This document shows, piece by piece, positions 2,440 through 19,092 of a stretch of DNA of 64,000 nucleotides. Source of the DNA: Ruminococcus sp. GTDB taxonomy: Bacteria; Bacillota; Clostridia; Oscillospirales; Ruminococcaceae. The stretch lies in NCBI RefSeq assembly GCF_017464355.1, contig NZ_JAFUAG010000038.1, positions 1 through 64,000 on the forward strand, written 5' to 3'. The notes beneath the pieces are model-generated. The model had not been told where the DNA came from. It searched no databases and worked only from the letters and a program-made list of their open reading frames with translations. The translations under genes were made by a program, and so were the position numbers. How positions within the stretch are numbered: the stretch's first letter is position 1; each line of letters opens with the position of its first letter.

Positions 2440-3066
2440 ATGGTGAACAAGGACAAAAGCATTGATCCCGTTTTGCTGAAGAGCGCACGGGAACATTTCC
2501 TCGCAAAGGGCTTTGCCAATGCGTCGGTGCAGGAGATCTGCAAAAATGCAGGTGTGACGACCGGAGCGCTTTATACCCGCTACAAGGGAAAGGGAGAACT
2601 GTTTGAGGCAGTCGTCGAGGATGCAGTGCAGGTCCTGAATGACATCGCAAAGGCTGCCGAAACGGATATTGAGCGCCTGTCAGACCATGATCTGCTCGCA
2701 CCGTGGTATGCGGATGCAGCAGGGCTTTCAAGATTCTTTGACTTGTTTTATGGTGTTCGTGATTCGTTTATTCTGCTGCTCGCCTGTGCGGAGGGGACGA
2801 AATATCGGAATTTTCACCATGATTTCGCACAGCAGCTCACAGAGATCGACTACCGCTATTATGCGGAAGCGCATCGGCGCGGACTTGCAGGAGAAACGAT
2901 CAGCAAAGAAACGCTGCACGTTCTGCTGACCGCCTACTGGGAACTGTTCTATGAGCCATTCATTCATGGAATGTCCCGCGATGAAATGTCAGCACTGTGT
3001 CTGACCATCGCAAAGCTGATCAACTGGAAACAGGCGCTCGGACTGCCGGAAAGTCTGCCGGACTGA
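2440..3066 (+). CDS. TetR-family transcriptional regulator
   Basis: A full-length TetR protein of about 208 residues. The N-terminal helix-turn-helix is clear (ASVQEICKNAGVTTGALYTRYKGK, residues about 29-52); the C-terminal ligand domain is not diagnostic. AGGTGAG stands upstream; the start may be ATG 2440 or GTG 2443, the latter having better spacing. It is the first gene of a tightly packed set of transport genes and very probably senses their substrate or a related compound and represses the set. A strong promoter and an inverted repeat lie directly upstream, consistent with autoregulation. Confidence 0.85.
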   Translation: MVNKDKSIDPVLLKSAREHFLAKGFANASVQEICKNAGVTTGALYTRYKGKGELFEAVVEDAVQVLNDIAKAAETDIERLSDHDLLAPWYADAAGLSRFFDLFYGVRDSFILLLACAEGTKYRNFHHDFAQQLTEIDYRYYAEAHRRGLAGETISKETLHVLLTAYWELFYEPFIHGMSRDEMSALCLTIAKLINWKQALGLPESLPD

Positions 3067-3088
3067 CCGGCATTTCCAATGGATATTA

Positions 3089-3104
3089 GTTAGTGTATAC
3101 TAAC
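3089..3104. promoter_or_regulatory. Inverted repeat between tetR and the transport genes
   Basis: Perfect arms GTTAGT and ACTAAC around GTAT, 28 bases before the S-component start codon. It may be a second operator or a local regulatory site; its sequence differs from the repeat upstream of tetR. Confidence 0.4.
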
Positions 3105-3131
3105 ATCAATATAAGAATAAGGAGAATTATC

Positions 3132-3743
3132 ATGAGCAAAAAGGAAATCGCTTCAAGTGATCCGTCAAACAGGAAGCTGCGGACAAAGGAACTCATCTAT
3201 GCGGGTGCATTCGGTGCGTTGTATATCGTACTGATGCTGGTGATCGTGTTGGGCACGAGCATGATCCCTGTTCTGTATCTGCTGGCACCCATTACTGTCG
3301 GTCTGGTCTGCGGAACGGTCTATATGCTCTGTGTCCTCAAGGTAAAAAAGTTCGGCGCAGCGCTGATACTCGGCATACTGTTTGCTCTGTGTGCGTGCAG
3401 CAATGCATGGTTCAGCTTTGTCGGGGCTGTTGCGGCAGCGCTGCTGGCAGAACTGGTGATCAAACTTGGAAACTACAGGTCAAAAAAACTATATCTGCTG
3501 TCTTTTGTTGTATTCAACATCAACATGGCTTGCCCCTACATGATGCTTTCGTTTGCAAGGGATTCCTTCCTGAAACGCTCCGTGGAGTACTACGGTCAGG
3601 AGTACGCTGACGGCATTGCAAAGCTCGCGCCGACATGGATCTTTTTCCCGATCCTCGGATTTGCGTTGGCAGGAGGCATTCTCGGCGCATTGCTTGCAAA
3701 TGCGCTCATCAAAAAGCACTTTGAAAAAGCAGGGGTAGTATAA
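3132..3743 (+). CDS. ECF transporter S component, Trep_Strep/MptD-like
   Basis: A hydrophobic protein of 203 residues starting at ATG 3132, which follows AAGGAG at good spacing; an upstream in-frame codon at 3093 has no ribosome site. It has a short polar N-terminus (SNRKLRTKELIYAGAFG), about six membrane spans and a basic C-terminus, as in the Trep_Strep family of substrate-binding components of energy-coupling-factor transporters. It should bind the substrate in the membrane and work with the T component and the ATPases encoded next. The substrate is not known from sequence; neighbours suggest a metal chelate or similar small compound. Confidence 0.75.
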   Translation: MSKKEIASSDPSNRKLRTKELIYAGAFGALYIVLMLVIVLGTSMIPVLYLLAPITVGLVCGTVYMLCVLKVKKFGAALILGILFALCACSNAWFSFVGAVAAALLAELVIKLGNYRSKKLYLLSFVVFNINMACPYMMLSFARDSFLKRSVEYYGQEYADGIAKLAPTWIFFPILGFALAGGILGALLANALIKKHFEKAGVV

Positions 3744-3744
3744 G

Positions 3745-4494
3745 TTGGATATTTCAGTTTACGGTGAGGATCGCGGGGCATTGGTGCGTTTCGATCCTCG
3801 CACGAAATTTGTCGTATTTCTCGCATCACTGGCGGTAAGTGCTAATTCCTTCAATGCCACGGCACTTGAGCTGTACAGCTTTGTGCTGTGTGCCATGCTG
3901 TTTTTTTGCGGCAAGAAGTGGAACGCCGTCAAAATGGCACTGATGCTGGGACTTGCCGTGTATGCCCGCACCTGTATGGAGATGCAGGCAACGGGCGCAA
4001 AGATCGTGGTCACGATCATTTCCTTTCTTGTGACGATCTTTCTGTATTTCTTTCCCATGCTGGTTTCTTTGCTCATCATCACGCAGACGACCCGTGTAAA
4101 TCAGTTTTTGTCAGCATTTCAGGCGATGCATATTCCGACAAAGATCGTGATACCCATTGCGGTCATGTTTCGCTTTATCCCGACGGTGAGCGAAGAATGG
4201 AACGGTGTCCGTAAGGCGATGGCATTTCGCGGTATGTCGCTGGAACCGTCTGCGATCATCCGGCATCCGGTGAAAACCGTGGAGTACATCCTGATCCCAC
4301 TGCTGTTTTCGTGTATCTCCATTATGGAGGAGCTTGCAGCGGCAGCGCTTGCAAGGGGGATGGACAGCAACAAAACTCGGACATCCTACGAAACTGTACG
4401 CCTGAAAGCATATGACTATATCACCATAGCGTTGTTTGCCGTAACCGGGATCTGGTTCTTTGCAGCAGGGCTTGTGACGGGAGGTGCGGCATGA
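3745..4494 (+). CDS. ECF transporter T component (CbiQ/EcfT-like)
   Basis: About 249 residues starting at TTG 3745, two bases after the S-component stop and following AGGGG. It has several membrane spans and the cytoplasmic coupling region typical of EcfT/CbiQ, including the short Ala-Arg-Gly element near residue 210 (AAAALARGMD) that contacts the ATPases. It links the S component to the ATPase domains. Its stop overlaps the start of the next gene (ATGA), pointing to translational coupling and fixed stoichiometry with the fused ATPase protein. Confidence 0.8.
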   Translation: MDISVYGEDRGALVRFDPRTKFVVFLASLAVSANSFNATALELYSFVLCAMLFFCGKKWNAVKMALMLGLAVYARTCMEMQATGAKIVVTIISFLVTIFLYFFPMLVSLLIITQTTRVNQFLSAFQAMHIPTKIVIPIAVMFRFIPTVSEEWNGVRKAMAFRGMSLEPSAIIRHPVKTVEYILIPLLFSCISIMEELAAAALARGMDSNKTRTSYETVRLKAYDYITIALFAVTGIWFFAAGLVTGGAA

Positions 4495-7400
4495 TCTCAT
4501 TCAAAGACGTAGACTTCCACTATGGCGGTGAAAACGGCACCGGTGACGGTGTGGACGGCATTGATCTCACCATAGCGGACGGTGAATGTGTTGTGCTGTG
4601 CGGTCGCAGCGGATGTGGAAAAACGACTGTAACGAGGCTCATCAACGGTCTGATACCGCATTTTTATGAGGGTGAACTGATCGGTGATGTGATGATAGAC
4701 GACTACAATGTATCAAAAGGCGAGCTGTCGGAAACGTCAAGGCGTGTGGGCAGTGTCTTCCAGAATCCCAAATCGCAGTTTTTCAATATCGATACCTCCG
4801 GCGAGCTGGTATTCGGTTGTGAAAACCTCGGACTTTCCCATGAGGAGATCAGCAAAAGGATGGAACGAACGGTAACAGACCTGAAGCTCCAGCCGCTGAT
4901 GAACCGCAATATTTTTGAGTTGTCCGGCGGAGAAAAGCAGCAGATCGCCTGTGGAAGCGTTTACGCCGCCGAGCCGCAGATCTATGTAATGGATGAGCCT
5001 TCCTCAAATCTGGATAGAAAGGCGGTCAACCGCCTCCATGATATTTTTGCAAGGATGAAGGCGAACGGAAACACGCTCGTTATCTCCGAGCATCGTATCC
5101 ACTATCTGATGGATATTGCTGACAGGTTCATCTATCTGGATGACGGCATCATTACGGGTGAATATACGGCGGTCGAGATGCGTGCCATGTCCGATGAAAC
5201 GCTTGCAGAGATGGGACTGCGCTGCACGGATATCCGACATATCCCCACAAATCAGAAAAACAATATACTGCAAAAATCCGCAGCGGCACTCGATGTGATC
5301 GACCTGAGCTGCAGTCGGGGCAATTCACGCATTCTGGATATTGACCGGATACTGCTGCCGGAAAACAGCATCGTTGCCGTTGTTGGTGATAACGGCTGCG
5401 GAAAAAGCACACTGGCAGAAGCACTCTGCGGACTGATCCCGTCAGACGGCAGTGTGGCGCTGGGCGGCAGATTTCTGAATGACAGGCAAAGACAGCAGCA
5501 GTGCTATATGGTGATGCAGGATGTGAACCGACAGCTATTTTCGGACAGCGTGATCGAGGAAGTCATGCTGAACGCGGCGGTATCAAAGGAAGACGCGGAA
5601 AAGACGCTCGCAGAGCTGGGACTTGCAGACTTTGCTGACCGTCACCCCGCATCGCTTTCGGGCGGTCAGAAGCAGCGGACTGCCATTGCGGCGGCACTCT
5701 GTGCAGGCAAGGACATCATTCTGTATGACGAGCCGACCAGCGGTCTTGACCGCATGGGAATGCAGCGCTTTGGTGAACTGCTCCGCAGCACCCGCAGCAA
5801 GGTCAGACTTTCTTTCATCATTACCCATGACCCTGAACTGATCTTGCACTGCTGCACCCATGTTCTGCACATGGACAGAGGGCGTGTGACTGCCTTTTAT
5901 CCGATGAACGACGAAGGTGCAAAGCGCATCAAGACCTATTATCTCTCCAAAAGCAGCGATACCACCAGCAAGGTGCGGGACAGAAAAACTCAGATCGGCA
6001 AGATACTCGAATACACAGGCGGTGAACGCAGCAAGGTGTTTCTGGCAGCATTTCTCATGATGATCGGTGCGGCGGCGAGTGTCGTGCCTTACGGACTTGT
6101 GGGGAGTCTTGTCCGCAAAGTGCTGAGCAGCGGCAATATTACACTCAAAGGCGCACTGCCTGTCATCGGAGGAATGCTGCTCTGTGAGGTGCTTTATGCG
6201 GTGTTTTATATGCTGGGACTGCGCGTTTCGCACCATGCAGCGTTTGCGACGCTGGAAAATATCCGCTGCAAATTGCAGGAAAAGCTCGAACAGCAGCCGC
6301 TGGGTCCTGTCATGGCACGTTCTAAGGGGGAACTCAAAAAGCTGTTTTCGGATGATATTGAATCCATTGAAATGCTCCTTGCACACATGATACCGGAAGG
6401 AGCAGCAAATCTATTTGTGCCTGCTGCGGCTCTGCTGCTGTTGCTGTATGCCGACTGGCAGCTTGCCTTGCTCACACTGCTGATGGTCATGATCGGGCTG
6501 AGCGTTTCAAAGCAGATGTACAGTGTCGGTATGGATCGCATGGGCAGTTATTTTGCAGCATCTAAACGCATGAACAGTGCGATCGTGGAATATATCAATG
6601 GCATGGAGGTCGTGCGTGTCTTTCACCGTGACGGTGCGGCAAGCGAAAAATACGAAAAGGCGGTCACTGATTACAGAGATCTGGCACTTGACTGGTACCG
6701 TGTCTGCTGGCCGTGGATGGCACTTTACGGCAGTGTCTTTTCAAGCGTGGTGCTGTATTCTCTGCCCTTTGGCATCCTGCTGATCTTGCTGGGACAACTG
6801 GAGATCACAAATTTTGTCCTTGCACTTATCCTGTCATTCGGCATTGCACCTCTGCTGCTGCATTGCATGAGCTTTGTGGGTTCGATCCCGCAGGTATCAT
6901 TCAAAATCCAATCTCTTGAAAAGGCACTGGATGATATTCCGGTTAAAACGGGCAGCAGCGATATCAGGGGCGATCACAGCATCACATTTGAAAACGTGCG
7001 CTTCTCCTATCGGGATAATGAGGTCATCAAGGGGATATCTTTCAAGGCGGAACAGGGAAAAACAACTGCACTTGTCGGTCACAGCGGCAGCGGAAAAAGC
7101 ACGCTGGCAAGGCTTCTTGTGCATTACTATGATGTCAGCGAAGGACATATCCGCATTGGCGATACAGATATCTGCGATACGTCACTTGAGAAGCTGAATG
7201 CACGCATCGCCTATGTGTCGCAGGAGGTGTTCCTGTTCAACAAGTCGGTCATGGAAAATATCCGTGTGGGACGGCATGATGCGACCGATGAGGAGGTCAT
7301 TGCCGCTGCGAAGAAAGCGCAGTGCCACGAGCTGATCCTGTCGCTCCCGAATGGTTATGACACACCTGCCGGACTTGCAGGCAATATGCTGTCGGGCGGA

Positions 7401-7727
7401 CAAAAGCAGCGGATCGCTTTTGCAAGAGCCATTCTGAAGGATGCACCGATCATTATCCTTGACGAGGCAACGGCTTTTGTCGATGCGGAAAACGAACGGA
7501 AAATGCGCCGTGCGATAGAACAGATCACGAATGGCAAGACCGTCATTGTGATCGCTCACAAGCTTTCTTCCATCAAGAATGCAGATAAGATCATTTTGCT
7601 CGATCACGGCACGATCGCCGCAGAGGGCACACATGAAGCGCTCACAGCAAGCTGCGGGAAATACAGAAAACTGTGGGCAATATCAGAGAAAACACAAAGC
7701 TGGACATTGAAGGAGGCGGGCACATGA
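4491..7727 (+). CDS. Fusion of two ECF ATPases with an exporter-fold ABC half-transporter
   Basis: A 1,078-residue protein with three nucleotide-binding domains. Domain 1 has Walker A GRSGCGKTT (38-46), signature LSGGEKQ (144-150) and Walker B ending MDEP (167-170). Domain 2 has Walker A GDNGCGKST (299-307) and signature LSGGQKQ (389-395); these two correspond to EcfA1/EcfA2. From about residue 500 a six-span exporter-type membrane domain follows, then a third ATPase with Walker A GHSGSGKST (near 861) and signature LSGGQKQR (near 967). ECF ATPases and exporter-type ABC proteins are normally separate polypeptides. The gene overlaps both neighbours by four bases. It probably powers the upstream S/T components and also pairs with the next ABC half-transporter, as in IrtAB/YbtPQ-like siderophore importers. 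Confidence 0.85.
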   Translation: MISFKDVDFHYGGENGTGDGVDGIDLTIADGECVVLCGRSGCGKTTVTRLINGLIPHFYEGELIGDVMIDDYNVSKGELSETSRRVGSVFQNPKSQFFNIDTSGELVFGCENLGLSHEEISKRMERTVTDLKLQPLMNRNIFELSGGEKQQIACGSVYAAEPQIYVMDEPSSNLDRKAVNRLHDIFARMKANGNTLVISEHRIHYLMDIADRFIYLDDGIITGEYTAVEMRAMSDETLAEMGLRCTDIRHIPTNQKNNILQKSAAALDVIDLSCSRGNSRILDIDRILLPENSIVAVVGDNGCGKSTLAEALCGLIPSDGSVALGGRFLNDRQRQQQCYMVMQDVNRQLFSDSVIEEVMLNAAVSKEDAEKTLAELGLADFADRHPASLSGGQKQRTAIAAALCAGKDIILYDEPTSGLDRMGMQRFGELLRSTRSKVRLSFIITHDPELILHCCTHVLHMDRGRVTAFYPMNDEGAKRIKTYYLSKSSDTTSKVRDRKTQIGKILEYTGGERSKVFLAAFLMMIGAAASVVPYGLVGSLVRKVLSSGNITLKGALPVIGGMLLCEVLYAVFYMLGLRVSHHAAFATLENIRCKLQEKLEQQPLGPVMARSKGELKKLFSDDIESIEMLLAHMIPEGAANLFVPAAALLLLLYADWQLALLTLLMVMIGLSVSKQMYSVGMDRMGSYFAASKRMNSAIVEYINGMEVVRVFHRDGAASEKYEKAVTDYRDLALDWYRVCWPWMALYGSVFSSVVLYSLPFGILLILLGQLEITNFVLALILSFGIAPLLLHCMSFVGSIPQVSFKIQSLEKALDDIPVKTGSSDIRGDHSITFENVRFSYRDNEVIKGISFKAEQGKTTALVGHSGSGKSTLARLLVHYYDVSEGHIRIGDTDICDTSLEKLNARIAYVSQEVFLFNKSVMENIRVGRHDATDEEVIAAAKKAQCHELILSLPNGYDTPAGLAGNMLSGGQKQRIAFARAILKDAPIIILDEATAFVDAENERKMRRAIEQITNGKTVIVIAHKLSSIKNADKIILLDHGTIAAEGTHEALTASCGKYRKLWAISEKTQSWTLKEAGT

Positions 7728-9439
7728 TCGGGATGATACGTCAGATATTGAAATTTTCCGGGAAATATGCAAAGCGCATCCGAATTGCCTATATCACTGT
7801 ATTTCTGCACTCCCTGCTGCTGAATATCCCTGTCATGGCAGCAATTCTGACAGTTGACCGCTGCCTGAACGGCAGGCTGGATCTCAAGACCGGCGTGCTG
7901 ACGGCAGTGTTGCTGTATTCGGCATTTCTGCTGCAAGCGCTCTGCAAAAATCTGTCTGACAGGCTTGAATCAGGTACAGGCTATATGATCTTCTGCGACA
8001 AACGCCGTGAACTGGGAGAGCATCTCCGACGGCTGCCGATGGGATATTTCACCGAGGGCAATCTCGGGAAAATCAGCTCAGTGCTCTCGCAGGACATGGT
8101 CTATATCGAGGAGCAGGCAATGACGATTGTTGCCGATGTAGTCAGCGACATCTTTTCCACAATACTGACTTGTGTGTTCATGTTTGTATTCCATCCCCTG
8201 CTGGGTGCGGTCACGCTGGCAGTGGATATTCTGGCATTCCTCATCGCACAGCCCATGATACGGCGCTCCAGTGCAGATGCAAAGCTGCGGCAGGAAAGCA
8301 TCGAGGGACTGACCTCTGCGGTGCTGGAATATGCGGATGGTCTGCCCGTTATCAAAAGCTACGGAATGACAGGCGAAAGTGCTTCAGAGATGCGGAATGC
8401 TTTTCATGCGTCACGGGCCGCCAATCTGGAATATGAAGAACATATCCTCCCCTATGAGATCGCCATGATGCTCCTTTACGGCATCGGCATGACGGGTATT
8501 CTCGCCTCTGCGGTCTGGCTGTTTCAGCAGGGCAGTATCACCGCCGTATATTTTGTGGGTGTTGTGCTGTTTCTGTTCAGCATCTTTTCATCGGTCAAGC
8601 ACCTGTTTCAGCAGAGTACAAGATTGACGATCATGAAAAATTCCCTGGACAGGATAAACGAAATATTCAACGAAGCGGAGATCACCGATTTCGGAACAGC
8701 GAAAATCACCGATGATCCGACAGATGCAGAGATCGAATTTCAAAACGTCTCGTTCGGTTACGGCAAGGAAATGATCCTGCGTGATATTTCCTTTACCGCA
8801 AAGAAGGGGCAAATAGCAGCGCTCGTTGGCGAATCGGGCAGCGGTAAAACCACCATTGCTTCCCTGCTTGCAAGATTCTGGGATGTCGGTTCGGGTGAAA
8901 TACGAATCAGAAATACAAATATAAAAGATGTGCAGCTCAGTGACCTGATGGCACATATCAGCATGGTATTTCAGCGTGTCTACCTGTTCCATGACACCGT
9001 TTACAATAACATTGCAATGGGCAGCGGTGCCTCCCGTGAAGAGGTCATGGAAGCCGCAAAAAAAGCCCGATGCTACGAGTTTATCATGTCATTGCCCTAT
9101 GGATTTGATACGATCATTGGAGAAGGCGGTGCCACGCTGTCAGGCGGTGAGGCACAGCGAATATCGATCGCGAGATGTATCCTGAAGGATGCGCCGATCA
9201 TCATTCTGGATGAAGCGACCGCCAGCATTGATGCCGATAATGAACGCTGCATACAGGAGGCAATGTCGGAACTGTGTCGGAATAAGACAGTTCTTGTCAT
9301 CGCACATCGGCTGTACACCATAGCAAATGCCGATCAGATCATCGTAATGGACAAGGGAAGAATTGCCGAACAAGGCACCCGCGAGGAATTGCTTTCGCTT
9401 GGCGGCATTTACAGCAGAATGGAGGCAGCCAATGCTTAA
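7724..9439 (+). CDS. ABC half-transporter, exporter fold (membrane domain + ATPase)
   Basis: The start is ATG 7724, after AAGGAGG and overlapping the upstream stop as ATGA, giving 571 residues. The N-terminal half has six membrane spans; the ATPase half contains GESGSGKTT (Walker A), LSGGEAQR (signature) and IIILDEAT (Walker B). It most likely forms a heterodimer with the exporter-fold half of the preceding fusion protein. Such pairs next to Trep_Strep genes resemble transporters of siderophore loci (YbtP/YbtQ, IrtA/IrtB), which import despite the exporter fold; here that is an inference from context only. Confidence 0.85.
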   Translation: MIGMIRQILKFSGKYAKRIRIAYITVFLHSLLLNIPVMAAILTVDRCLNGRLDLKTGVLTAVLLYSAFLLQALCKNLSDRLESGTGYMIFCDKRRELGEHLRRLPMGYFTEGNLGKISSVLSQDMVYIEEQAMTIVADVVSDIFSTILTCVFMFVFHPLLGAVTLAVDILAFLIAQPMIRRSSADAKLRQESIEGLTSAVLEYADGLPVIKSYGMTGESASEMRNAFHASRAANLEYEEHILPYEIAMMLLYGIGMTGILASAVWLFQQGSITAVYFVGVVLFLFSIFSSVKHLFQQSTRLTIMKNSLDRINEIFNEAEITDFGTAKITDDPTDAEIEFQNVSFGYGKEMILRDISFTAKKGQIAALVGESGSGKTTIASLLARFWDVGSGEIRIRNTNIKDVQLSDLMAHISMVFQRVYLFHDTVYNNIAMGSGASREEVMEAAKKARCYEFIMSLPYGFDTIIGEGGATLSGGEAQRISIARCILKDAPIIILDEATASIDADNERCIQEAMSELCRNKTVLVIAHRLYTIANADQIIVMDKGRIAEQGTREELLSLGGIYSRMEAANA

Positions 9440-9614
9440 TGCAAAGAAGATCACAGGACTTTTGATGATGATGGCAAGCATTTTTCTGCTGCTGGGAGGG
9501 CTTTATCTCAACGCCGAAATGGTATCACAGTTTGTCATTACGTTACTGATAGTCGGCGGTGTATTGCTGCTGATCGCTGGGTTTGTGTTGTATAAGCTGA
9601 CAGATGAACAGTAA
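9432..9614 (+). CDS. Small two-span membrane protein in the ABC operon
   Basis: Starting at ATG 9432, after GGAGG and overlapping the end of the ABC gene by eight bases, it encodes 60 residues with two hydrophobic segments (about 9-26 and 33-54) and a short charged tail. Tight overlap shows that it belongs to the transport operon. It could be an accessory subunit. No family recognised. Confidence 0.6.
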   Translation: MLNAKKITGLLMMMASIFLLLGGLYLNAEMVSQFVITLLIVGGVLLLIAGFVLYKLTDEQ

Positions 9615-9634
9615 AATAATAGGAGGAAATGATA

Positions 9635-10432
9635 ATGGAACTGAAACTCGGAGATGTGCAGACGACAGCTTTGATCCCGCTTGCTGTCAAGGCAAATGAA
9701 ACGCTGCGTCCAAACGCCAGGATCAAAGACCGCAAGGCGGTTGAGATCATTCAGGCTCTGAAAATTGATACGGCGCAGTATGATAAATTCATGTCACATG
9801 AGGGTGTGATCGCAAGAACGATCATGCTGGACCGTCAGCTGAAAGGAATCATCAGAAAAGCGCCCGATACGGTGATCGTGAATGTCGGTGCAGGGTTTGA
9901 TGATCGGTTTTCGAGAGTGGATAACGGCAGAATTGCATGGTTCGACCTCGATCTGCCAGACTCGATCGCTGCAAGAAGAAAGGCATTCCCGGAACGTGAG
10001 CGTGTCACGATGCTCGCAGGGAATGCGCTTGAAAATGATTGGTGCAGACCGGTGCAGGAAGCACTTGTTGGCAGAAAAGCAAAGCCGGTGTTTATCGCTG
10101 AGGGATTATTTATGTACCTCACGCTTGATCAGATCCGCACGTTTCTGGAAGTGCTGAAAGCCAATTTCCCGAACGGCGGTATTCTGATCGCAGAACAAAA
10201 CTGCAAGGCGATGCAGAAAAATGAAAAGCACCATGATACTGTCAAAAACACCAAAGCACATTTTATGTCCGGTACGGATTCGGGACAGGAGATCGCTGAT
10301 CTGACAGACGGTTTTCAGCTCGTGGAGGAACACAGCTTCAATGAAGAAATGAAAAAACACAGCATCCGCGGCAAGCTGTTTGCATTCCTGCTTCCCAAAA
10401 TGAATGACCGTTGGGCAACATTCAGATGGTGA
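9635..10432 (+). CDS. SAM-dependent methyltransferase, leucine carboxyl methyltransferase family
   Basis: About 265 residues. ATG 9635 lies eight bases after AGGAGG and is preferred to ATG 9629, which is too close. The SAM-binding motif is seen as VIVNVGAGFDDRF (about 84-96), with the acidic motif WFDLDLP and a later VFIAEGLFMYL, all typical of the PPM1/TcmP (LCM) family. Members methylate carboxyl groups of proteins or small molecules. Last gene of the operon, 15-20 bases after the small membrane protein. It may modify the transported compound; this is inference. Confidence 0.75.
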   Translation: MELKLGDVQTTALIPLAVKANETLRPNARIKDRKAVEIIQALKIDTAQYDKFMSHEGVIARTIMLDRQLKGIIRKAPDTVIVNVGAGFDDRFSRVDNGRIAWFDLDLPDSIAARRKAFPERERVTMLAGNALENDWCRPVQEALVGRKAKPVFIAEGLFMYLTLDQIRTFLEVLKANFPNGGILIAEQNCKAMQKNEKHHDTVKNTKAHFMSGTDSGQEIADLTDGFQLVEEHSFNEEMKKHSIRGKLFAFLLPKMNDRWATFRW

Positions 10433-10700: not shown

Positions 10701-11149
10701 ATGAAAATCCGGATCATTTCGCTGGTGAGAAGATCAACGCATTTTTCAACGCTTTGTATGCTGACAAGAAGCACTATATGTATCAGGTCATGTTCAGTGT
10801 GATGCTTGCGACCGAATGCCGTATCGGTGAGATCTGTGCGCTGACGTGGGATAACATCGACTTTGAGAATGATCGCATTCATATCTGCAAGCACTTTACC
10901 GTTGGCAAGACAGGCTCTTATATTCGTGACGGCTGCAAGACAAACGCAGGAGACCGCTGGCTCAACAGCTTTACCGAAAAGAACGGGCTTCCGAGGATAC
11001 ATCCGCATATGTTCCGTCATACATCGGTAAGCTTGCAGTTGCAGGCAGGTATCAGCATTGCAGACGCAGCTAAGAGAGCAGGTCATGCACGTCCTGATGT
11101 GACACTGAGAATTTACTCTCACACACTCAAAAAGAATGAACTGCATTGA
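10700..11149 (+). pseudogene. Tyrosine recombinase (integrase) remnant
   Basis: The catalytic domain of a phage/ICE-type tyrosine recombinase is recognisable: first Arg in ATECRIGEICALTW, the H-x-x-R box as HPHMFRHTS, the following His in AGHARPD and the Tyr nucleophile in RIYSHTL. The N-terminal arm- and core-binding domains are missing; the frame opens near 10700 without a start. Between KTNAGDRWL and NSFTEKNGLP about 40-50 residues normally present between the active-site Lys and the HxxR box are also gone, in frame. The remnant suggests that a mobile element once lay here. No attachment repeat was seen. Confidence 0.65.
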
Positions 11150-11404: not shown

Positions 11405-11509
11405 ATGGATAACAAGGTATTATATCATGGGAGCACACAAATAGTAGAGTTTCTCGAGATGACTGAGGAGTGGCTGGATATTCACTGCTGTTTAGGAGAA
11501 ATAGCATGA
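11405..11509 (+). pseudogene. DUF3990-like protein, internally deleted
   Basis: A 34-residue frame starting at ATG 11405 after AAAGGAG. It begins with the DUF3990 signature VLYHGSTQIVE and passes directly to EMTEEWLDI, a motif I know from the second half of these proteins; about 80 residues between them are absent, again in frame. The stop overlaps the next start as ATGA. DUF3990 proteins resemble ADP-ribosyltransferase-like folds and are common in accessory loci. It may now serve only as a leader for the next gene. Confidence 0.4.
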
Positions 11510-11784
11510 ATATTGATAGATTTGTTGAATTGTTCATAAAAAAAGGCAATGCAGATGGATCGGGACAATATAACATTGGCAATGAGTGTTATGATTTAAT
11601 TATCAAGTGTTATAATGATATCAAAATTAATGATGAAGAAGATGAATTGTTATCATTAATAAATCATAAGAATTGCAACACCACCACAATTCAATATATT
11701 GACAAATCACAATTTCAGCACTATAATTTACATAAAGTTATTTTACAGACAGCAGCAATATTGAAAGCGAGGTCAGAAAAATGA
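11506..11784 (+). CDS. Unknown AT-rich 92-residue protein
   Basis: ATG 11506 overlaps the preceding stop (ATGA) and follows TTTAGGAGAA. The product is acidic and rich in Asn, Ile and Asp (MNIDRFVELFIKKGNADGSG); its base composition is clearly more AT-rich than its neighbours, pointing to separate acquisition. It ends in an ATGA overlap with the next gene. The composition and size would suit an immunity or antitoxin-type protein, but there is no motif to prove this. No family recognised. Confidence 0.5.
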   Translation: MNIDRFVELFIKKGNADGSGQYNIGNECYDLIIKCYNDIKINDEEDELLSLINHKNCNTTTIQYIDKSQFQHYNLHKVILQTAAILKARSEK

Positions 11785-12926
11785 GTAACATAAATGACAT
11801 TCCCGAACTTGAACGCGGTGAATATACCGAAACGATCTACGGCGATACCTGTTCGGACGAGCCTGCCAACTCTGAAAATGCAGAGGACATCGTCAGGGGC
11901 ATTGAGCTTGCCATGAAGCTTGAGACCCGTCCTGTATTTCTTGAGGGTGCTGCTGCCAGGCTGACACAGCTTGGCGTGCCTTGTAAAGCCGAAGACACTC
12001 AGCTCATACTTGCAGAAGTCAGGCGCAGATTTAACGATAAGCTTGGTATTTCCTGCCCTAAAGCGGTGGAAAACTGGTGCAGGGGCGGAAACACGGGCGT
12101 CACTAACCGTAAGAACAATTATGACCTCTGCTATGCCCTTGAAATGGACTATGATGAAACGGCGGTCTTCTTTCAGAAGACATATCTGACCATACCTTTC
12201 ATTGTCAAAAGTAAAGAAGATGCAGTGTTCATGTACTGTCTGTATCACAAGAGACCCTATTCTGTGGTGAAGGGATTGCTTGAAAAATCAAAGGGTTTTG
12301 TTTCTCAGGAAAAAGCCCATACCTCGACCGCACAGATAAGATCGGTGATACTTGAAACAGATGATGATGAAAAATTCCTGCGGTATCTTTCGGAGCATTG
12401 CTATGATAAAGAGCAGCAGTTTCAGCTTGCAAGGGACCTCATTATCAAAGAGGTCAATGACGTGAAAGAAATACTTCAAAAATATGAAAAAGACAGGATA
12501 CTGTCTGCCAAAAGGCTCAACAGCATGACGATAGAGGCTCTGCTTGGCTACAAGTATCAGCGTTCAGACAAAAAGCTCAAAGATAGCGGTCTGCCAAAAC
12601 GCTTTACAGAGTCGCTTCCCAATGATGCCACCCTCGGTGATATAATCAACGGCAATAGGGCTTCATACGAGCTTCTGCGCAAGACCCTTATGCTGCTGAA
12701 ATTCTATAATTTCTACTTTGGAGCAGATAACGACAGCCGTGAAAGTGTAAGGGCAAATCTTATGGATCTCCGTGGAGAACTTAACTACGCACTTAATTCC
12801 TGTGGCTTTGCCCGGCTGTATGTATGTCACCCATTTGATTGCCTGCTTTTGTACTGTGCTAATTCTTTTGACCCCATTGACACGCTCTACTGCGTTATCC
12901 AGAACGGGCAGAACCCATTTTTATAA
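11781..12926 (+). CDS. Unknown 381-residue protein, possible HTH-containing partner of the kinase-STAND gene
   Basis: A soluble protein starting at ATG 11781. Residues about 75-135 (CPKAVENWCRGGN, then NRKNNYDLCYALEMDYDET) resemble the helix pattern of XRE-type DNA-binding domains that pick a recognition helix before a conserved Leu-Ala-Leu stretch. The remainder, mostly helical, has no motif I recognise. The stop is 48 bases before the kinase-STAND gene, which has its own promoter. The pairing suggests a regulator or signalling partner. Confidence 0.55.
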   Translation: MSNINDIPELERGEYTETIYGDTCSDEPANSENAEDIVRGIELAMKLETRPVFLEGAAARLTQLGVPCKAEDTQLILAEVRRRFNDKLGISCPKAVENWCRGGNTGVTNRKNNYDLCYALEMDYDETAVFFQKTYLTIPFIVKSKEDAVFMYCLYHKRPYSVVKGLLEKSKGFVSQEKAHTSTAQIRSVILETDDDEKFLRYLSEHCYDKEQQFQLARDLIIKEVNDVKEILQKYEKDRILSAKRLNSMTIEALLGYKYQRSDKKLKDSGLPKRFTESLPNDATLGDIINGNRASYELLRKTLMLLKFYNFYFGADNDSRESVRANLMDLRGELNYALNSCGFARLYVCHPFDCLLLYCANSFDPIDTLYCVIQNGQNPFL

Positions 12927-12954
12927 TCCCTTTCGGGAATGGGTTATAATATAG
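12915..12954 (+). promoter_or_regulatory. Promoter of the kinase-STAND gene
   Basis: CCATTTTTATAATCCC starting at 12915 and TATAATATAG starting at 12945; there is no TTGACA-type -35. A hairpin (ATCCC / GGGAT-like) lies between them. The same arrangement recurs at 15717-15755, which is why both parts are thought to matter. Confidence 0.55.
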
Positions 12955-12973
12955 GTGAAAGGAGGTCGGTGAT

Positions 12974-15694
12974 ATGCTTGAAAAGGGCTATATTTTGTCT
13001 GCGGAGGGCAGGCAGTACACGATCATAGAACAGCTTGGCAGAGGTGCGAATACAGTTGCCTACCTCGCTGAGTGCAGTCACGGAGAACTGATGACAAAGT
13101 GCATTCTGAAAGAATATGCTCCCCGTAACACAGAAGATATTGAGGTCGGCAAGGCACGTTTTATCAATGCGGGCAGGACGCAGAATGCGGTACGGCAGAA
13201 GTCTGTGCTGAGCAATCAGACACCGCCTGTGAGCCACGTTTTTGAAGCCAGCGGCACGGCTTTTATCGATGTTGCCTGCTACAACGGAACAACTCTTGAA
13301 AAGCTGAGTGAGCTTACATTACCGCAGTATATGTCGATCTGCAAAACCATAGCCAAAACCGTAGGTTACTACCATAAGTCTGGATATCTCTGCCTTGATC
13401 TGAAACCCGAAAACATCTTTATCCTGCAAAATTCTCCCGATGATACTGTAACACAGCTTGTGGAGTTCATCGACTTTGACAGTATCAGAGAGATGCAAAA
13501 CGGCGGTAACACGCTGTTTTCCTACACCAGAGAATGGGCCGCGCCAGAACAGCTTGATCCCTATGCAACTGCAAAAATAGGCAGTACCGCTGACATCTAC
13601 ACCGTGGGCGAGATAGTATTCTATCTGCTTTTCGGCAGACATTCCACCGATACTGAACACAGGGGATTTTCAAGATTTCCCTTTGAGGAATGCAGGCGTG
13701 AATATCACAAATATACTGAGCGCCCCGATGTGCAGGCGCTTTTCACAAGGATTTTTCGTGGGACGATACGTTCATCTGCAACGAACCGGATTCGGGACAT
13801 TGACGAGGTCACAAAACTTCTCGGTGCGCTTGTGGGAGCGCTGGAGCAGAAAGACTATGTTATCCCCATACTTCCGACAGTATCGCCTGATTTTGTGGGC
13901 AGAGATACTGAGCTTAAGCAGATAGCTGAAAGTCTGCAAAGTAACCATGTCCTGTATATCACGGGGCTTGGCGGTATCGGCAAGACCACGCTGGTCAAGA
14001 ACTATATTTCACGCTATCGGACAGAATATGATGTTATCGCTTATCTTGAATATGACGGCGATATTCAGCATACCTTCTGCGATGATATGCAGCTGCAATT
14101 AAGCACTGTGTCACGGCAGGACGGTGAACCTCCGGAGGACTATTTTGCCCGTAAGCTAAAGGCTTTCAAGCGTATCTGCGGCGGGCGGCGGGTGCTGTTC
14201 GTGGTGGACAATTTCAGCGGACTAATGAGCAAAGACCTGAGCCGTATCATCAACTGCGGATATGACACCATTATCTGCACAAGAAGCAAGCCGCCGAAAA
14301 ACAGCTTTGCTGTTCTGGAGGTCGGGGCTATATCAGATAATGCCGACATTTTCAGGCTCATCACCCTGAACCTTGAAAGACAGCTTACAAAAGCAGAACG
14401 GCTGTGCTTTGAGGAGATAATAACTCTGGTTCAGGGGCATACTCTTGTCCTGGAACTTATAGCAAGACAGATAGCCGCAGGCAGGCTGGATATCCACACG
14501 GCGCTTGACCTTATCCGTGAGAATGGTTTTTCTCAGTTTTCCGATGAAAAGGTGGGCAATATAAAGGACGGTGAAGAGGTCTACGATACACTGGAAACTA
14601 TCATCTCGGCGCTGTTCGATGCAAGTGCTGTCAGCAAGGAAGCAAGGCTCACGCTGAAGATACTTGCTCTGCTGAATGTGCGCGGCCTTGAAACGAGCCT
14701 TGTGGAGAAATTCTTCCCCGACATTTCCCCAAAAACTATATCTGCGCTTTCTGCAGAGGGCTGGATATATTCAGGTGAGCGTATAAAGCTTCACCCCGTC
14801 ATAGCCGAGACTGTCCGCTACTGGGAATGGTATGGCGAAAAAGTGCAGGTCATGGAATATCACAAAAAAGTCATCGACATATATGTCGGTATGTCAGACG
14901 CTTTGCAGATAAAGGAAATACTGCGTTCTGCCGACAGTTACACAAGTATGCACGACCACCATATCATCAGGGGTATGTATTTTGATATGCTGGCGAGCTA
15001 TTATGACACGCTGGTCGCGGGGCGGTATGTGGCTTATTCAGAGGAAGAGAAAGACCTTGTGCTGAAACTGGTGCAAGCCATGGACGATGCCATTGCTGAA
15101 ATGGAGCAGGAGCCCGATAAAAGGCGGGATAAATATCTTGCGAACTACTACCTTTCGCTGGCCACAATTTTGATGAGAGGCGACCCCGAATGCTTTGATG
15201 AAGCCTCTGAACTTATCAAAAAAGCAGGTGATATGATAAACCAAAACCTCGATGAACTGTGTGATGAACACATATATCTGTGTACGGTAACGATGTGGTA
15301 TTTCACTTTGGCGGAACCGAATATAGAACTGGTCAGAGAGCTTGCCGACTCCGCAGAAGAAATGGCTTACAAAATATACAAGACCGAGCTGGAGATAATT
15401 GATATCATATATATCCCGACAGCGAACTGCTATTTTTATCATAACGACTTCCGCTCGTCAGCCGACAAGATAGAAGAAGCGGTGGAGATCTGCAGGAAGT
15501 ATCCCGACATGATACCGTATATCGACAAGCAGGCAGAACTGCTGAATATTCTGCTTGACATATATATGGAAATGCAGGACATACCCAAATGCCGTCAGCT
15601 TATCGCTGAGATAGACCACATCAATGAAAGATACAAAGAACAGGGCGTTTGCCGTGAAGTATCGCCTTTCATACGAGAAAAAGCAGGTTCGTGA
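12974..15694 (+). CDS. Protein kinase-STAND NTPase-helical repeat protein
   Basis: A 906-residue protein after GGAGG. Residues 15-290 are a eukaryotic-type Ser/Thr kinase: glycine loop GRGANT (22-27), Lys46, catalytic LDLKPEN with Asp142 and Asn147, and metal-binding Asp167 (DFD instead of DFG; Cys140 replaces the His of HRD). From 307 (FVGRDTE) a STAND/NB-ARC NTPase follows with Walker A GLGGIGKTT (331-339), Walker B ending Asp412 and sensor TIICTRS. Then come a winged-helix region and about 300 helical residues of TPR character. STAND proteins act as ligand-triggered switches, often in antiphage defence or regulation; kinase fusions imply that the output or input is phosphorylation. Substrate unknown. 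Confidence 0.8.
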   Translation: MLEKGYILSAEGRQYTIIEQLGRGANTVAYLAECSHGELMTKCILKEYAPRNTEDIEVGKARFINAGRTQNAVRQKSVLSNQTPPVSHVFEASGTAFIDVACYNGTTLEKLSELTLPQYMSICKTIAKTVGYYHKSGYLCLDLKPENIFILQNSPDDTVTQLVEFIDFDSIREMQNGGNTLFSYTREWAAPEQLDPYATAKIGSTADIYTVGEIVFYLLFGRHSTDTEHRGFSRFPFEECRREYHKYTERPDVQALFTRIFRGTIRSSATNRIRDIDEVTKLLGALVGALEQKDYVIPILPTVSPDFVGRDTELKQIAESLQSNHVLYITGLGGIGKTTLVKNYISRYRTEYDVIAYLEYDGDIQHTFCDDMQLQLSTVSRQDGEPPEDYFARKLKAFKRICGGRRVLFVVDNFSGLMSKDLSRIINCGYDTIICTRSKPPKNSFAVLEVGAISDNADIFRLITLNLERQLTKAERLCFEEIITLVQGHTLVLELIARQIAAGRLDIHTALDLIRENGFSQFSDEKVGNIKDGEEVYDTLETIISALFDASAVSKEARLTLKILALLNVRGLETSLVEKFFPDISPKTISALSAEGWIYSGERIKLHPVIAETVRYWEWYGEKVQVMEYHKKVIDIYVGMSDALQIKEILRSADSYTSMHDHHIIRGMYFDMLASYYDTLVAGRYVAYSEEEKDLVLKLVQAMDDAIAEMEQEPDKRRDKYLANYYLSLATILMRGDPECFDEASELIKKAGDMINQNLDELCDEHIYLCTVTMWYFTLAEPNIELVRELADSAEEMAYKIYKTELEIIDIIYIPTANCYFYHNDFRSSADKIEEAVEICRKYPDMIPYIDKQAELLNILLDIYMEMQDIPKCRQLIAEIDHINERYKEQGVCREVSPFIREKAGS

Positions 15695-15708: not shown

Positions 15709-15716
15709 GTCGGAAT

Positions 15717-15755
15717 CCATTTTTATAACCCCAAAAAATATATGCTATAATATAG
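15717..15755 (+). promoter_or_regulatory. Promoter of the small membrane peptide and lipoprotein genes
   Basis: CCATTTTTATAACCCC starting at 15717 and TATAATATAG starting at 15746, spaced 29 bases apart; the copy before the kinase-STAND gene is spaced 30. No TTGACA-type -35 box is present, so an activator or another sigma factor may be used. Confidence 0.55.
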
Positions 15756-15794: not shown

Positions 15795-15941
15795 ATGAAC
15801 GATATCGGAAAGGGAATGCTGCTGGTACTGCTTATACTGTATATCGTATCACCGATCGACTTGATGCCTATGTGTCCTGTTGATGACATTATAGCAATAC
15901 TTTTGTACACCGCATCGTCTAAGAAAGCAAAGGAGGAATGA
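15795..15941 (+). CDS. 48-residue membrane peptide with a DUF1232-like core
   Basis: ATG 15795 follows AAGGAGG. The product has one or two hydrophobic stretches around the segment YIVSPIDLMPMCPVDD, which matches the core of DUF1232 proteins (S-P-I-D-L-x-P ... D-D). Normal DUF1232 proteins are over 80 residues, so this is a minimal version. The last codons contain the ribosome site of the lipoprotein gene, which begins three bases after the stop. Its promoter mirrors that of the kinase-STAND gene. Function unknown. Confidence 0.6.
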   Translation: MNDIGKGMLLVLLILYIVSPIDLMPMCPVDDIIAILLYTASSKKAKEE

Positions 15942-15943
15942 CT

Positions 15944-17035
15944 ATGAAAAATATTAAAAAACTCACAGCTATCGCAGCTGCTTTATGCGTGCTTTTATCC
16001 GCCTGCGGAACTGCGGGTACGGAGCAAAGTTCTGAAAAAATGACAAATGCTGCGACCTCAGGGACGGCAGCTGAAACGGCGGAAACTTCCGAAAAAGCTG
16101 ACGAGCCCGAAGTCAGCGGGGAAACACTTCACCTTGATTACGGCGACGCGGCTTCACTGGCAGCGGCGCTGAACGCAGGGGAAGACGTAACAGGAAAAAC
16201 TGTCCGCTTTACAGTGGAAGAAATTCACCCCGACTCGGCAGTGGGCTTCAACCTGTGGGCGGGGGAGCACCTGAATTTTGTCACTCCCGATGAGCAGGAC
16301 GTTCATGAGGGCGACGTGCTGACGGTAAAGGTCATTGGTGCTGAAACGCTGCTGGATTCCTGGATAATCAGCTATGAATTTGCGGAAAATGCCGTGGAAG
16401 ACAAAAATACTATCACCGCAGAGGATATCCCCGAGACCTCTGAAGAACCCGAAGAACCCGAGCAGACCGAGGAGCAGATAACCGAAGATACCTACGAGCA
16501 TAACGCATATTACGACATTGTGGAAACTTCAAGTTGGGTAAATTCCATCGGCAGCACAGTAATAGTCCACAAGGTCATGGCCAAGCAGGACGTTACAGTT
16601 TCATCGACAGTGCTTGCATATTCGGAAGACGGCAGTGTTATAGGCAAAAGCACAGATAACATCACGCTTACAGCAGGTCAACCGAACTATTTCAACTATC
16701 ACTTCTCTGAGGATATTTCCAATGCGGAACTCAAAACAAATGCTCAGGCGGAGAAAGACTCTATACTGACAGGGGAGCGCAATGCAGTAGAGCTGGTGCA
16801 GTGCGATATAGCTGACAAAGAGGTCTTCCTGACATTTAAGCAGACCGCCGAGAAGCTGAGCAGCTTTGCAAAATTCAAGCTGCTGCTGTACAGCGGTGAT
16901 AATATAGTAGGCACAGAGGACGGATTTTTCAGTATCTACGCAGGAAATCTCAGCGGAAAAGACACAACAGATGTAGCCGACCTGCGCATATACGGCACTG
17001 ATTTCGACAGGTTAGAATACATATTTGAGCCGTAG
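15944..17035 (+). CDS. Lipoprotein with OB-fold-like domain
   Basis: The start is ATG 15944, seven bases after AGGAGG (ATG 15938 is too close). The 363-residue product has a lipoprotein signal peptide with lipobox LLSAC near residue 22, then a Thr/Glu-rich linker, a domain at about 50-140 (DYGDAASLAAAL, GKTVRFTVEEI, LTVKVIGAE) resembling tRNA_anti-like OB folds of secreted proteins, a Glu/Pro-rich linker, and a C-terminal beta-rich domain. It should be anchored outside the cell membrane. Co-transcribed with the 48-residue peptide. Role unknown; possibly a sensor. Confidence 0.7.
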   Translation: MKNIKKLTAIAAALCVLLSACGTAGTEQSSEKMTNAATSGTAAETAETSEKADEPEVSGETLHLDYGDAASLAAALNAGEDVTGKTVRFTVEEIHPDSAVGFNLWAGEHLNFVTPDEQDVHEGDVLTVKVIGAETLLDSWIISYEFAENAVEDKNTITAEDIPETSEEPEEPEQTEEQITEDTYEHNAYYDIVETSSWVNSIGSTVIVHKVMAKQDVTVSSTVLAYSEDGSVIGKSTDNITLTAGQPNYFNYHFSEDISNAELKTNAQAEKDSILTGERNAVELVQCDIADKEVFLTFKQTAEKLSSFAKFKLLLYSGDNIVGTEDGFFSIYAGNLSGKDTTDVADLRIYGTDFDRLEYIFEP

Positions 17036-17178: not shown

Positions 17179-19092
17179 TCAGCGATACACACCAGGATCT
17201 GAGCCGCTTTTTTTTATCTTCTCCGACCTCAGTGAAAGGGTCGAGCCCTCAACGGTCACACCCTCAGGAAGTTCTTCCTGACCGTCGTAAGGCTTGCTGA
17301 TAGTTTCTGCTGTCACAGCACTTACATCTGTGTCGTCGAGTTCTTCATTTGCAGGGAGGCTTCCGAGCCGAAATGTTTCTGCGAATACGCATCGTAGTTC
17401 AGCATGGCCTTTACAAGCGGTACTGCCTTTGCATATTCTTTATTCTCAGCAGCTCCTGCTATCAGCTGCTCCGCATATTCCCTGACAGTGTAGGTGTATT
17501 CCTCACCCGTGCGCTCCCCGTCAATTATCTGCGCTTTTATCTGCGAATTCATTTCCTTTGCAGATACATTGCACCTGAATGAATAGCAGGTCTTGCCGTT
17601 TACGGTCTTCTCCTTCGCTTCGCTGACAGGTACCTTCGCCGTCTTCCCGTTGGGCAGGGTAAATAGCATATACGCATCATCACTTGCAATGGCCGCAGGG
17701 TCAAGGTCCATTATGAAGTTAACACCTATGTTACCCATAAGGCTCAGCGAGCAGCCTGCAAGCACGTTCTCGGACGCATATTCCCATACTGCCTTTACAA
17801 CTGTGTCTTCTGTCACAGTGAAACTGTTATTGGGCAGATACTCTGTGTCACCTGAACTTCATATGGTCAGGGGCATCAAATTCAAAGAGGGGAAGTACAA
17901 ATTCATCTCCCTGTACCGCCTCGGCAGTTTCCTGCACACCCGTTCCGCCGTTTGCATCAAATGTCACGGTATATGTGGGAAGCTTCTCAAATACAGTAGC
18001 GATCTCAGCATTCGCCGCAGTCATCACCCTTCCAGCCGCTGAAACGCTCATACAGCTCAGTGTCTCCGACTGAAGTGGTCAGAATGTCTTCATCGCTCAG
18101 TGGGGGGAACATGAAGTTTCTGTCTCTGGGAATGAACATATTCATGAGTTCCACGCTGCTCTTGAAAGTGATAGCGACGATGCCGTTTTCTTATCCGCAT
18201 TCGCAGTTTCCGGTCTCTGCGTTTGCAGATGTGATCTTGTGTCCGCAATGCGAGCAGAACCAGGTGTGAGTATCATCGGTGATGTCCCGATAGTTCACTC
18301 CGCTTTCGGCGTGTGGGCAGTTGATAATGTGTATCTTCCGCGCGCTCCGACAAGTGCTGATGCGCTCGGTGTAAGGGTACGGGAGTAGTCTCTTCATTCT
18401 TATAAAGACAGCGGATACCGTCAACATGGAGCGTTCCCTCGTCGCTGCCGTCAGAACCGTAACCGATCGCCTGACCGCAGTTGCCGTTGAGAAAAGGATT
18501 CACGCTCACATTCACCGCCTCTAGAAAGGCCATATTCAGAGCCTGCACCGATACCTGCACCGTGTACGCCGCCCCGGGCAGTGACTGAGCCCGAGTGGAT
18601 ATTTATGATGCCGTTGAAATACTCGTCACTGCCGCCGATAGCTGCATAGCCCTTGTCTGCATTTGCGATGAGCGTTCCGTCGGTCTCACTTTCTCCGTAG
18701 ATGTTCAGCGTGCCGACATAGGTCGGATCAGTGTTTCCGTCACGTCTTGCGACCTCGATGTCCTTTTTAAAATTCGCGGTCACGCCGTCCTTGATAATCA
18801 GGTTCACGGTCTTATGTCTGCGGACTTTCAATCTGCTGTTGTCCTTCGGGTCGTAGTCGAATGTGCCGTTGAATATACGAGCATCTTCCGAAATTGCAAC
18901 CGTCTCTCCTGTTACAGTCTTTGTTTTATCATTCCATGTGGTGTTCCGGTATGTTCACAGTGACGACTCCGCGCTTGCACTTATGACAGAACTGTTGAAC
19001 AGCTGTGCCAGCGGCTGTGCAGGCGCACTTCCTGCTGCCAGCAGCAAAGCCGCCGCAGCAGAAAGTGTTCTCATGAGAAATTTGCCTTTCAT
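17179..19092 (-). pseudogene. Secreted surface protein with InlB-type repeat, multiply frameshifted
   Basis: The gene starts at ATG 19092 after GGGAGGTAAG with a good signal peptide (MKGKFLMRTLSAAAALLLAAG), but stops after SAESSL. Homologous-looking sequence then continues in other frames: a beta-helix-like segment (LNIYGESETDGTLIAN, 18.6-18.8 kb), a zinc-ribbon-like piece (WFCSHCGHKITSAN, about 18.2 kb), an InlB B-repeat (YTVTFDANGGTGV, about 17.95 kb), and a C-terminal region (17.3-17.8 kb). A last frameshift near 17.36 kb separates that region from the true end (SKPYDGQEELPEGV). At least four frame changes are needed. The intact ancestor was probably an exported, cell-surface protein of several hundred residues. 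Confidence 0.7.

Follow-up and report, generated by a model that had tools for sequence, protein, structure and literature searches.

Our analyses of a 64,000-nucleotide (nt) stretch of DNA from Ruminococcus sp. (contig NZ_JAFUAG010000038.1 of assembly GCF_017464355.1, positions 1 to 64,000; hereafter the window) showed that two neighboring genes, which we call B and C, form a real, conserved pair in Ruminococcus. B encodes a probable tandem XRE-like helix-turn-helix (HTH) protein, and C encodes a predicted Ser/Thr kinase that continues into an NB-ARC/STAND ATPase and helical repeats. A 15-nt element at a fixed distance from the -10 box precedes C and recurs behind it. We think it fairly probable that B is a constitutively produced activator and that the kinase-STAND sensor C sets its activity, with positive feedback on C and with mainly surface and small membrane proteins as targets. 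The window contig is 103 kb long and belongs to a 3.48-Mb draft genome. The features of the locus are:

11699..11727, + strand, consensus -35/-10 promoter match (TTGACA-17-TATAAT) upstream of B, 12/12 positions
11781..12926, + strand, B, 381-residue protein, probably with tandem XRE-like HTHs, predicted activator
12911..12925, + strand, promoter element GAACCCATTTTTATA overlapping the B 3' end, -10 TATAAT at 12945-12950
12974..15694, + strand, C, 906-residue kinase - NB-ARC/STAND - helical-repeat protein (Pfam, alignment, structure model)
13016..13651, + strand, predicted Ser/Thr kinase domain of C, residues 15-226 (K46, D142, D167 invariant)
13892..14893, + strand, predicted NB-ARC/STAND ATPase of C and following arm, about residues 307-640, inner border estimated (Walker A K337)
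14894..15691, + strand, helical-repeat (TPR-like) tail of C, likely sensor (model; least conserved part)
15713..15727, + strand, second element copy GAATCCATTTTTATA, -10 TATAAT at 15746-15751
15795..15941, + strand, 48-residue putative small membrane protein, first gene behind the second element (sequence reading)
15938..17035, + strand, 365-residue putative lipoprotein, second gene behind the second element (sequence reading)

A scan of genome contigs returned 17 C relatives with 50-79% identity in the best segment, and whole genomes contributed four further loci, so that 22 loci could be compared, window included. The named records among them are labelled Ruminococcus, Oscillospiraceae or Ruminiclostridium. 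B lies directly 5' of C in 20 of the 22 loci; the exceptions are L012 and L020, where no B stands in the 1023 nt and 4.9 kb of DNA, respectively, that lie upstream of C. The genes flanking the pair mostly vary between loci. Among 29 genomes of the genus, C was present in nine, and B was found in eight of these; in the ninth, G020, C lies at a contig start. In R. albus 7 the pair is carried by the plasmid pRUMAL01 (B as RUMAL_RS17560, C as RUMAL_RS17555), which makes the system testable in a named strain.

The element before C, GAAYYNRTTTTTATA, ends 18-19 nt ahead of TATAAT or a near match. It precedes C in all 22 loci, in 20 of them exactly and with one mismatch in L020 and L025. A second copy lies within 150 nt 3' of C in 13 of the 18 loci with at least 200 nt remaining, four loci having ended earlier. 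With up to one mismatch allowed, the 22 loci hold 40 element matches, and 38 of these have a -10-like box at 18-19 nt. When the spacing was left free, -10 matches peaked at 19 nt (36 matches, with at most four at any other distance), and the stretch in between is poorly conserved. If the -10 box starts at -12, the element would hence span about -46 to -32. Part of its conservation before C is coding, since there it often includes the stop codon of B. For the copies behind C, and for the ones in L012 and L020, coding does not account for it; as the element recurs after C, and before C also where B is missing, we rejected a coding constraint on the B C terminus as its explanation. Concerning known RNAs, no Rfam match at gathering score was found in the window.

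Genome-wide, the element follows the distribution of C. A strict pattern run on 61 whole genomes found 24 sites and its reversed control none; within the genus, the element occurred in all nine genomes with C versus one of 20 without (G009). The nine C-bearing genomes account for 22 sites, nine before C, seven just after C and six elsewhere, and a match in G041, a genome of another family, looks like chance. These searches led us to reject a general promoter element of the genus. In G009, where neither B nor C was found, the lone element stands before a zinc-ribbon gene (L130 5050-6141). A one-mismatch match at 7209 of L132, on the minus strand, is not in promoter position. A shortened pattern, run on 12 genomes and matching in seven, gave three further matches (G022 C1:93475, G004 C31:8131 and G002 C16:33653). 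At the first two of these (L128 and L129), in two R. albus genomes, a related block TCAATTTTTATA lies 18-19 nt before TATACT, and the spacer sequences are nearly alike.

B and C differ in the anatomy of their promoters. Among 16 loci with more than 100 nt available upstream of B, 13 carry a match of at least 10/12 to TTGACA-17-TATAAT within 150 nt 5' of B, seven of them at 12/12; the match is missing in L016, where the B start was probably called late, and in L027 and L028. In the C promoters of the 20 loci examined, which have the -10 box inside 60 nt, the -35 matches reach at most 4/6. The promoter after C matches at 10/12 with TTTATA as -35, a value for the window copy only. Such an arrangement would be expected for a constitutive activator and activator-dependent targets.

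The genes behind the element appear to encode mainly surface and small membrane proteins. A relative of the 48-residue protein, 89.6% identical, stands behind an element in R. albus 7 (G022), the combination of this membrane protein with the lipoprotein also occurs behind the element in R. albus strains, and relatives of the 365-residue lipoprotein were found in L013, L028 and, in part, L024. Further genes behind elements encode other lipoproteins, small membrane proteins and zinc-ribbon proteins, with membrane and lipoprotein labels assigned by sequence reading. Behind 12 of the 13 copies after C, a gene of this kind begins no more than about 100 nt away; L026 is the exception, with about 690 nt to the next gene. 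One of the three sites on pRUMAL01 is followed by genes for a 634-residue secreted protein, for a lipoprotein that carries an LHH (HNH/ENDO VII) nuclease domain, and for a SUKH immunity-type protein. The same set lies directly behind C in L016, without a second element, and in G004 the same kind of site precedes a mere short remnant of the 634-residue protein. The gene run behind one element, in L030, contains B itself. Genes for a dynamin-like GTPase and a HerA/DUF87-type ATPase also recur behind B-C in varying combinations (L024 9463-12681, L030 3-3981, L031 14429-19001 and L017 4755-10949), in L024 together with SPFH and zinc-ribbon genes.

For C, the initial annotation had read a Ser/Thr kinase, an NB-ARC STAND ATPase and helical repeats in one protein, and here Pfam matches and the structure model agree. 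The matches to Pkinase (residues 15-226, E 2.8e-17) and NB-ARC (residues 312-413, E 7.7e-6) are both over the Pfam cut-off, and residues 640-906 form a confident helical solenoid in the predicted structure; the model is poor across the kinase C-lobe, with a pLDDT below 50 at residues 103-251. In an alignment of the window sequence with 19 relatives, one of them at 23% identity, the kinase residues K46, D142, N147, D167 and D169, the ATPase residues G331, G333, G334, G336, K337 and D412, and likewise H607 are invariant in 20/20 sequences. The earlier readings of Cys-Leu-Asp and DFD in the kinase, and the residue numbers given with them, are therefore right. By its Pkinase match, catalytic Lys and Asp, and Mg-binding Asn/Asp, C is a predicted Hanks-type Ser/Thr kinase, and Walker A and B motifs together with the modeled repeat tail mark it as a STAND/NB-ARC ATPase. 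The tail is likely the sensor, in keeping with its lowest conservation (mean pairwise identity 48-53% vs 61-66% for the remainder). The window genome holds seven kinase-domain matches in total.

B was less easily assigned. It has no significant match in Pfam, NCBIfam or PADLOC, where the best PADLOC row, Cas1 at E 0.003, was taken as chance, and a Foldseek search gave no significant match either. The top VIA-align row is a SaPI repressor, and the lack of better rows excludes nothing. A regular expression for XRE proteins yielded none, and a phmmer-built profile was used instead. The HTH-like character that had been ascribed to the 381-residue protein is likely, and we regard B as probably a tandem XRE-like HTH protein.

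Relatives of B extend beyond the genus, to 29 of 345 genomes sampled across the order. Of the 28 further genomes of the order that matched B, 21 contributed neighborhoods. For kinase neighbors we considered 23 B loci, namely 20 order loci together with L033, L034 and the viral-database locus L065. A kinase gene was in the stretch at 18 of these, within 2 kb of B in 11 and several kb off in the rest, and at six loci it encodes a kinase-STAND protein (L033, L104, L110, L112, L113 and L065). For comparison, seven genomes surveyed held 3 to 10 kinase matches each. The loci without a kinase in the stretch are L034, three that are cut within about 1.1 kb from the contig end (L105, L111 and L116), and L123, a weak match.

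Distant B loci also bear elements of their own. We scanned for paired 15-nt blocks located 18-19 nt before a -10 box, with a threshold of at least 13/15, in 23 B loci (12 test loci, L114-L123 and L068) and, as controls without B, in seven stretches (three overlapping window pieces, L066, L071, L072, which gave no pairs, and L073). Four of the 23 B loci carry such paired elements: CGCAACGAAAATTACA in L033, GTAAAATCCAWACTACGG in L106, TAAAAAAATCGAAAA in L117 and, in L104, a block around TTCYGCAAA. At this threshold, there were none among 4070 pairs in the seven stretches without B, and the 12 test loci likewise gave none at offsets of 25-53. Lowering the threshold to 12/15 costs the scan its power, as L112, L123 and, without B, L071 match. 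Genome-wide patterns found the elements of L033, L106 and L117 solely at their own loci, in two, two and three copies, and none in the other five, five and six genomes searched. The L104 element is known from its locus; its scan pair may be a tandem duplication, and visual inspection revealed the copy in front of the kinase-STAND gene. The L106 kinase contains Big_3 domains and matches PASTA below the cut-off; behind the second element copy of this locus comes a gene for a BspA-type leucine-rich repeat protein. In L117, a gene run at 2639-9710 reads PP2C - B - unknown - vWA - PP2C - kinase (PP2C and vWA by sequence reading) with three copies of its own element. This run resembles the kinase-phosphatase-vWA loci that we take to be TerY-P-like; it differs from B-C in that no STAND part was found at L117 and in its gene set.

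We give about even chances to a broader reading, in which B proteins and kinases make up an undescribed, order-wide class of systems with one kinase and one activator. Such systems would be the Ser/Thr-kinase equivalents of two-component systems, and each would use a promoter element of its own, always 18-19 nt from the -10 box. In the Ruminococcus branch, an NLR-like STAND sensor would then govern surface proteins; on the plasmid of R. albus 7 it would also govern a nuclease-immunity gene pair.

How might B and C work together? Our analyses show the conserved pair, the element and its geometry, its co-occurrence with C and the parallel elements in four distant B loci; binding of the element by B, activation by B, phosphorylation of B by C and the kind of signal are inferences. 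B would be made constitutively from its ordinary -35/-10 promoter and, with its two HTHs, would bind the 15-bp element, located around -46 to -32 in promoters whose -10 box is good and whose -35 box is poor, recruiting RNA polymerase there as a class II activator. C, presumably cytosolic, would detect a signal through its helical tail and STAND ATPase, probably via oligomerization, and its kinase domain would then control B, most likely by phosphorylation in analogy to PknK and VirS. Active B would raise C as a positive feedback and switch on surface lipoproteins and small membrane proteins.

The same pair and element could also be wired in the opposite sense, with B as a repressor that sits on the -35 regions of C and of the surface genes until activation of the kinase-STAND protein releases it. 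XRE-type HTH proteins often are repressors, the element overlaps the -35 region, and the top VIA-align row of B is a repressor; however, a repressed promoter would be expected to keep its -35 box, which is poor at the element promoters, and the rigid spacing to the -10 box suggests contact with RNA polymerase. We thus consider repression unlikely. Quite improbable, in our view, is that another host regulator or an alternative sigma factor reads the element and that B-C merely belongs to its regulon. This would account for the element in G009, and for L012 and L020, which have the element without B beside C. It fits poorly with an element found in only 1/20 genus genomes without C, with an ordinary TATAAT-type -10 box, and with distant B loci bearing different elements in the same geometry, with own-locus copies only in the three genomes searched whole.

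Antiphage defence, in which the STAND part would recognize a phage protein and the kinase would act as toxic effector, after the manner of Avs-like sensors and of defence kinases, has a slim chance of being the right explanation. STAND and kinase domains are present in defence systems, also by PADLOC matches, BrxL and E1/JAB genes are found close to the R. albus 7 copy, and IMG/VR contigs L065, with a kinase-STAND gene, and L068 have adjoining B-like and kinase genes. Yet the defence-family matches listed span only parts of C, housekeeping genes occur at many flanks, phage records gave a single partial match to C, and B, the element and the surface-protein targets are in line with a regulator. 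That C is just a housekeeping kinase, one of seven kinase-domain matches in the genome, and B a neighbor unrelated to it, we find hardly credible; this reading is disfavored by the distribution, as C is present in just 9/29 genus genomes, is plasmid-borne in R. albus 7 and has B beside it in 20/22 loci.

The initial annotation had left open whether the locus serves defence or signaling. Signaling is supported by the conserved pair and by an element that accompanies C and neighboring genes, most of which encode surface proteins, and defence as the primary function is unsupported, with PADLOC matches that cover parts of C and NCBIfam cut-offs far off. Among the best 25 of 38 PADLOC matches to C, every one falls either on the kinase domain and adjoining residues or around the P-loop (mad6, PD-T4-6, MkoA, STAND_TPR and Avs4). 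The sole Avs row among the matches listed is Avs4, at residues 309-354 with 19.1 bits vs a cut-off of 1500; MAD6 reached 38.4 bits vs 460, the PD-T4-6 rows listed are confined to residues 12-304 of the 906 in C, and C came close to none of the NCBIfam equivalog cut-offs.

Placement in defence islands, proposed earlier as a check, held for some loci and not for others. PADLOC and Pfam scans covered 140 of 146 selected proteins of 110-900 residues within 8 kb of C; the families come from the best 25 of 96 and 25 of 138, as counts without a background rate. Defence-type neighbors are the BrxL and E1/JAB genes of the R. albus 7 plasmid and single DpdF and PsyrT matches; other loci adjoin the housekeeping genes SufBD, MreB and phosphorylase. 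On pRUMAL01 (L127 24324-28019), BrxL stands beside ThiF-type E1 and Mov34/JAB genes downstream of C, a possible defence cluster. In 50,697 phage records, one partial match covered 35% of C. The B profile found no confirmed viral contig; the C profile found nine viral contigs, among them L065 and L068 with a B-like neighbor (L067, L069 and L070 were left out). On these putative viral IMG/VR contigs, the B-like gene lies beside a kinase gene at L065 6357-11447, where it is kinase-STAND-TPR, and at L068 7396-9254. Defence as an output of the system is possible.

There is a known precedent for a STAND-bearing kinase with a transcription factor as its target: PknK of Mycobacterium tuberculosis is a soluble Ser/Thr kinase with a C-terminal STAND domain that phosphorylates the transcription factor VirS and alters target operon expression (PMC4601284). 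C is likewise a predicted soluble kinase-STAND protein and may phosphorylate B in analogy. VirS belongs to the AraC family, whereas B resembles XRE proteins and its gene immediately precedes that of the kinase; moreover, in B-C a shared element marks both the kinase gene and surface genes, which implies feedback on the kinase. In Xanthomonas citri, the Hanks-type kinase PknS works through the transcription factor EcfK (PMC13147305). There the partner is an alternative sigma factor and PknS is transmembrane, unlike the B-C element promoters with their ordinary -10 box. No description of the B family, the B-C pair or the elements was found in the open-access literature, which leaves out most subscription papers.

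Avs proteins and their relatives resemble C in combining a STAND ATPase, a repeat tail and an N-terminal effector-type domain. They differ in that the N-terminal domain of C is a kinase, its neighbors are a regulator and surface proteins, and its Avs4 match is confined to the P-loop region. If our reading is true, it would in our judgement be unusual for a bacterial Ser/Thr kinase to have its own transcription factor together with a precise binding site recognizable in the DNA, and an NLR-like STAND protein would be wired to gene regulation rather than to cell death. The locus offers candidate kinase, factor and site together, and predicts targets gene by gene.

To the left of the pair, two further features were found:

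10754-11149, + strand, C-terminal part of a tyrosine recombinase (131-residue open reading frame, remnant; Phage_integrase, E 8.8e-18)
11506..11784, + strand, 92-residue AT-rich open reading frame, not conserved, no family match, probably outside the system

All three open reading frames described earlier are present (11506-11784, 11781-12926 with the ATGA overlap, and 12974-15694), and, of the mobile-element remnants said to border the region, the recombinase fragment confirms one on this side. The suggestion of a three-gene set was not borne out, and we rejected such a unit, as the 92-residue frame occurs only in its own genome (1/61, no relative in the 60 others) and has no relative at those C loci compared; the core is B and C plus downstream targets. 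The frame has no match in Pfam, NCBIfam or PADLOC families. With no relatives, a G+C content of 0.276 and the TTGACA-17-TATAAT match upstream of B inside it, its membership in the system is not established. To the right, at 17322-18051 on the minus strand, adjoining short open reading frames resemble, by sequence reading, fragments of one broken secreted protein.
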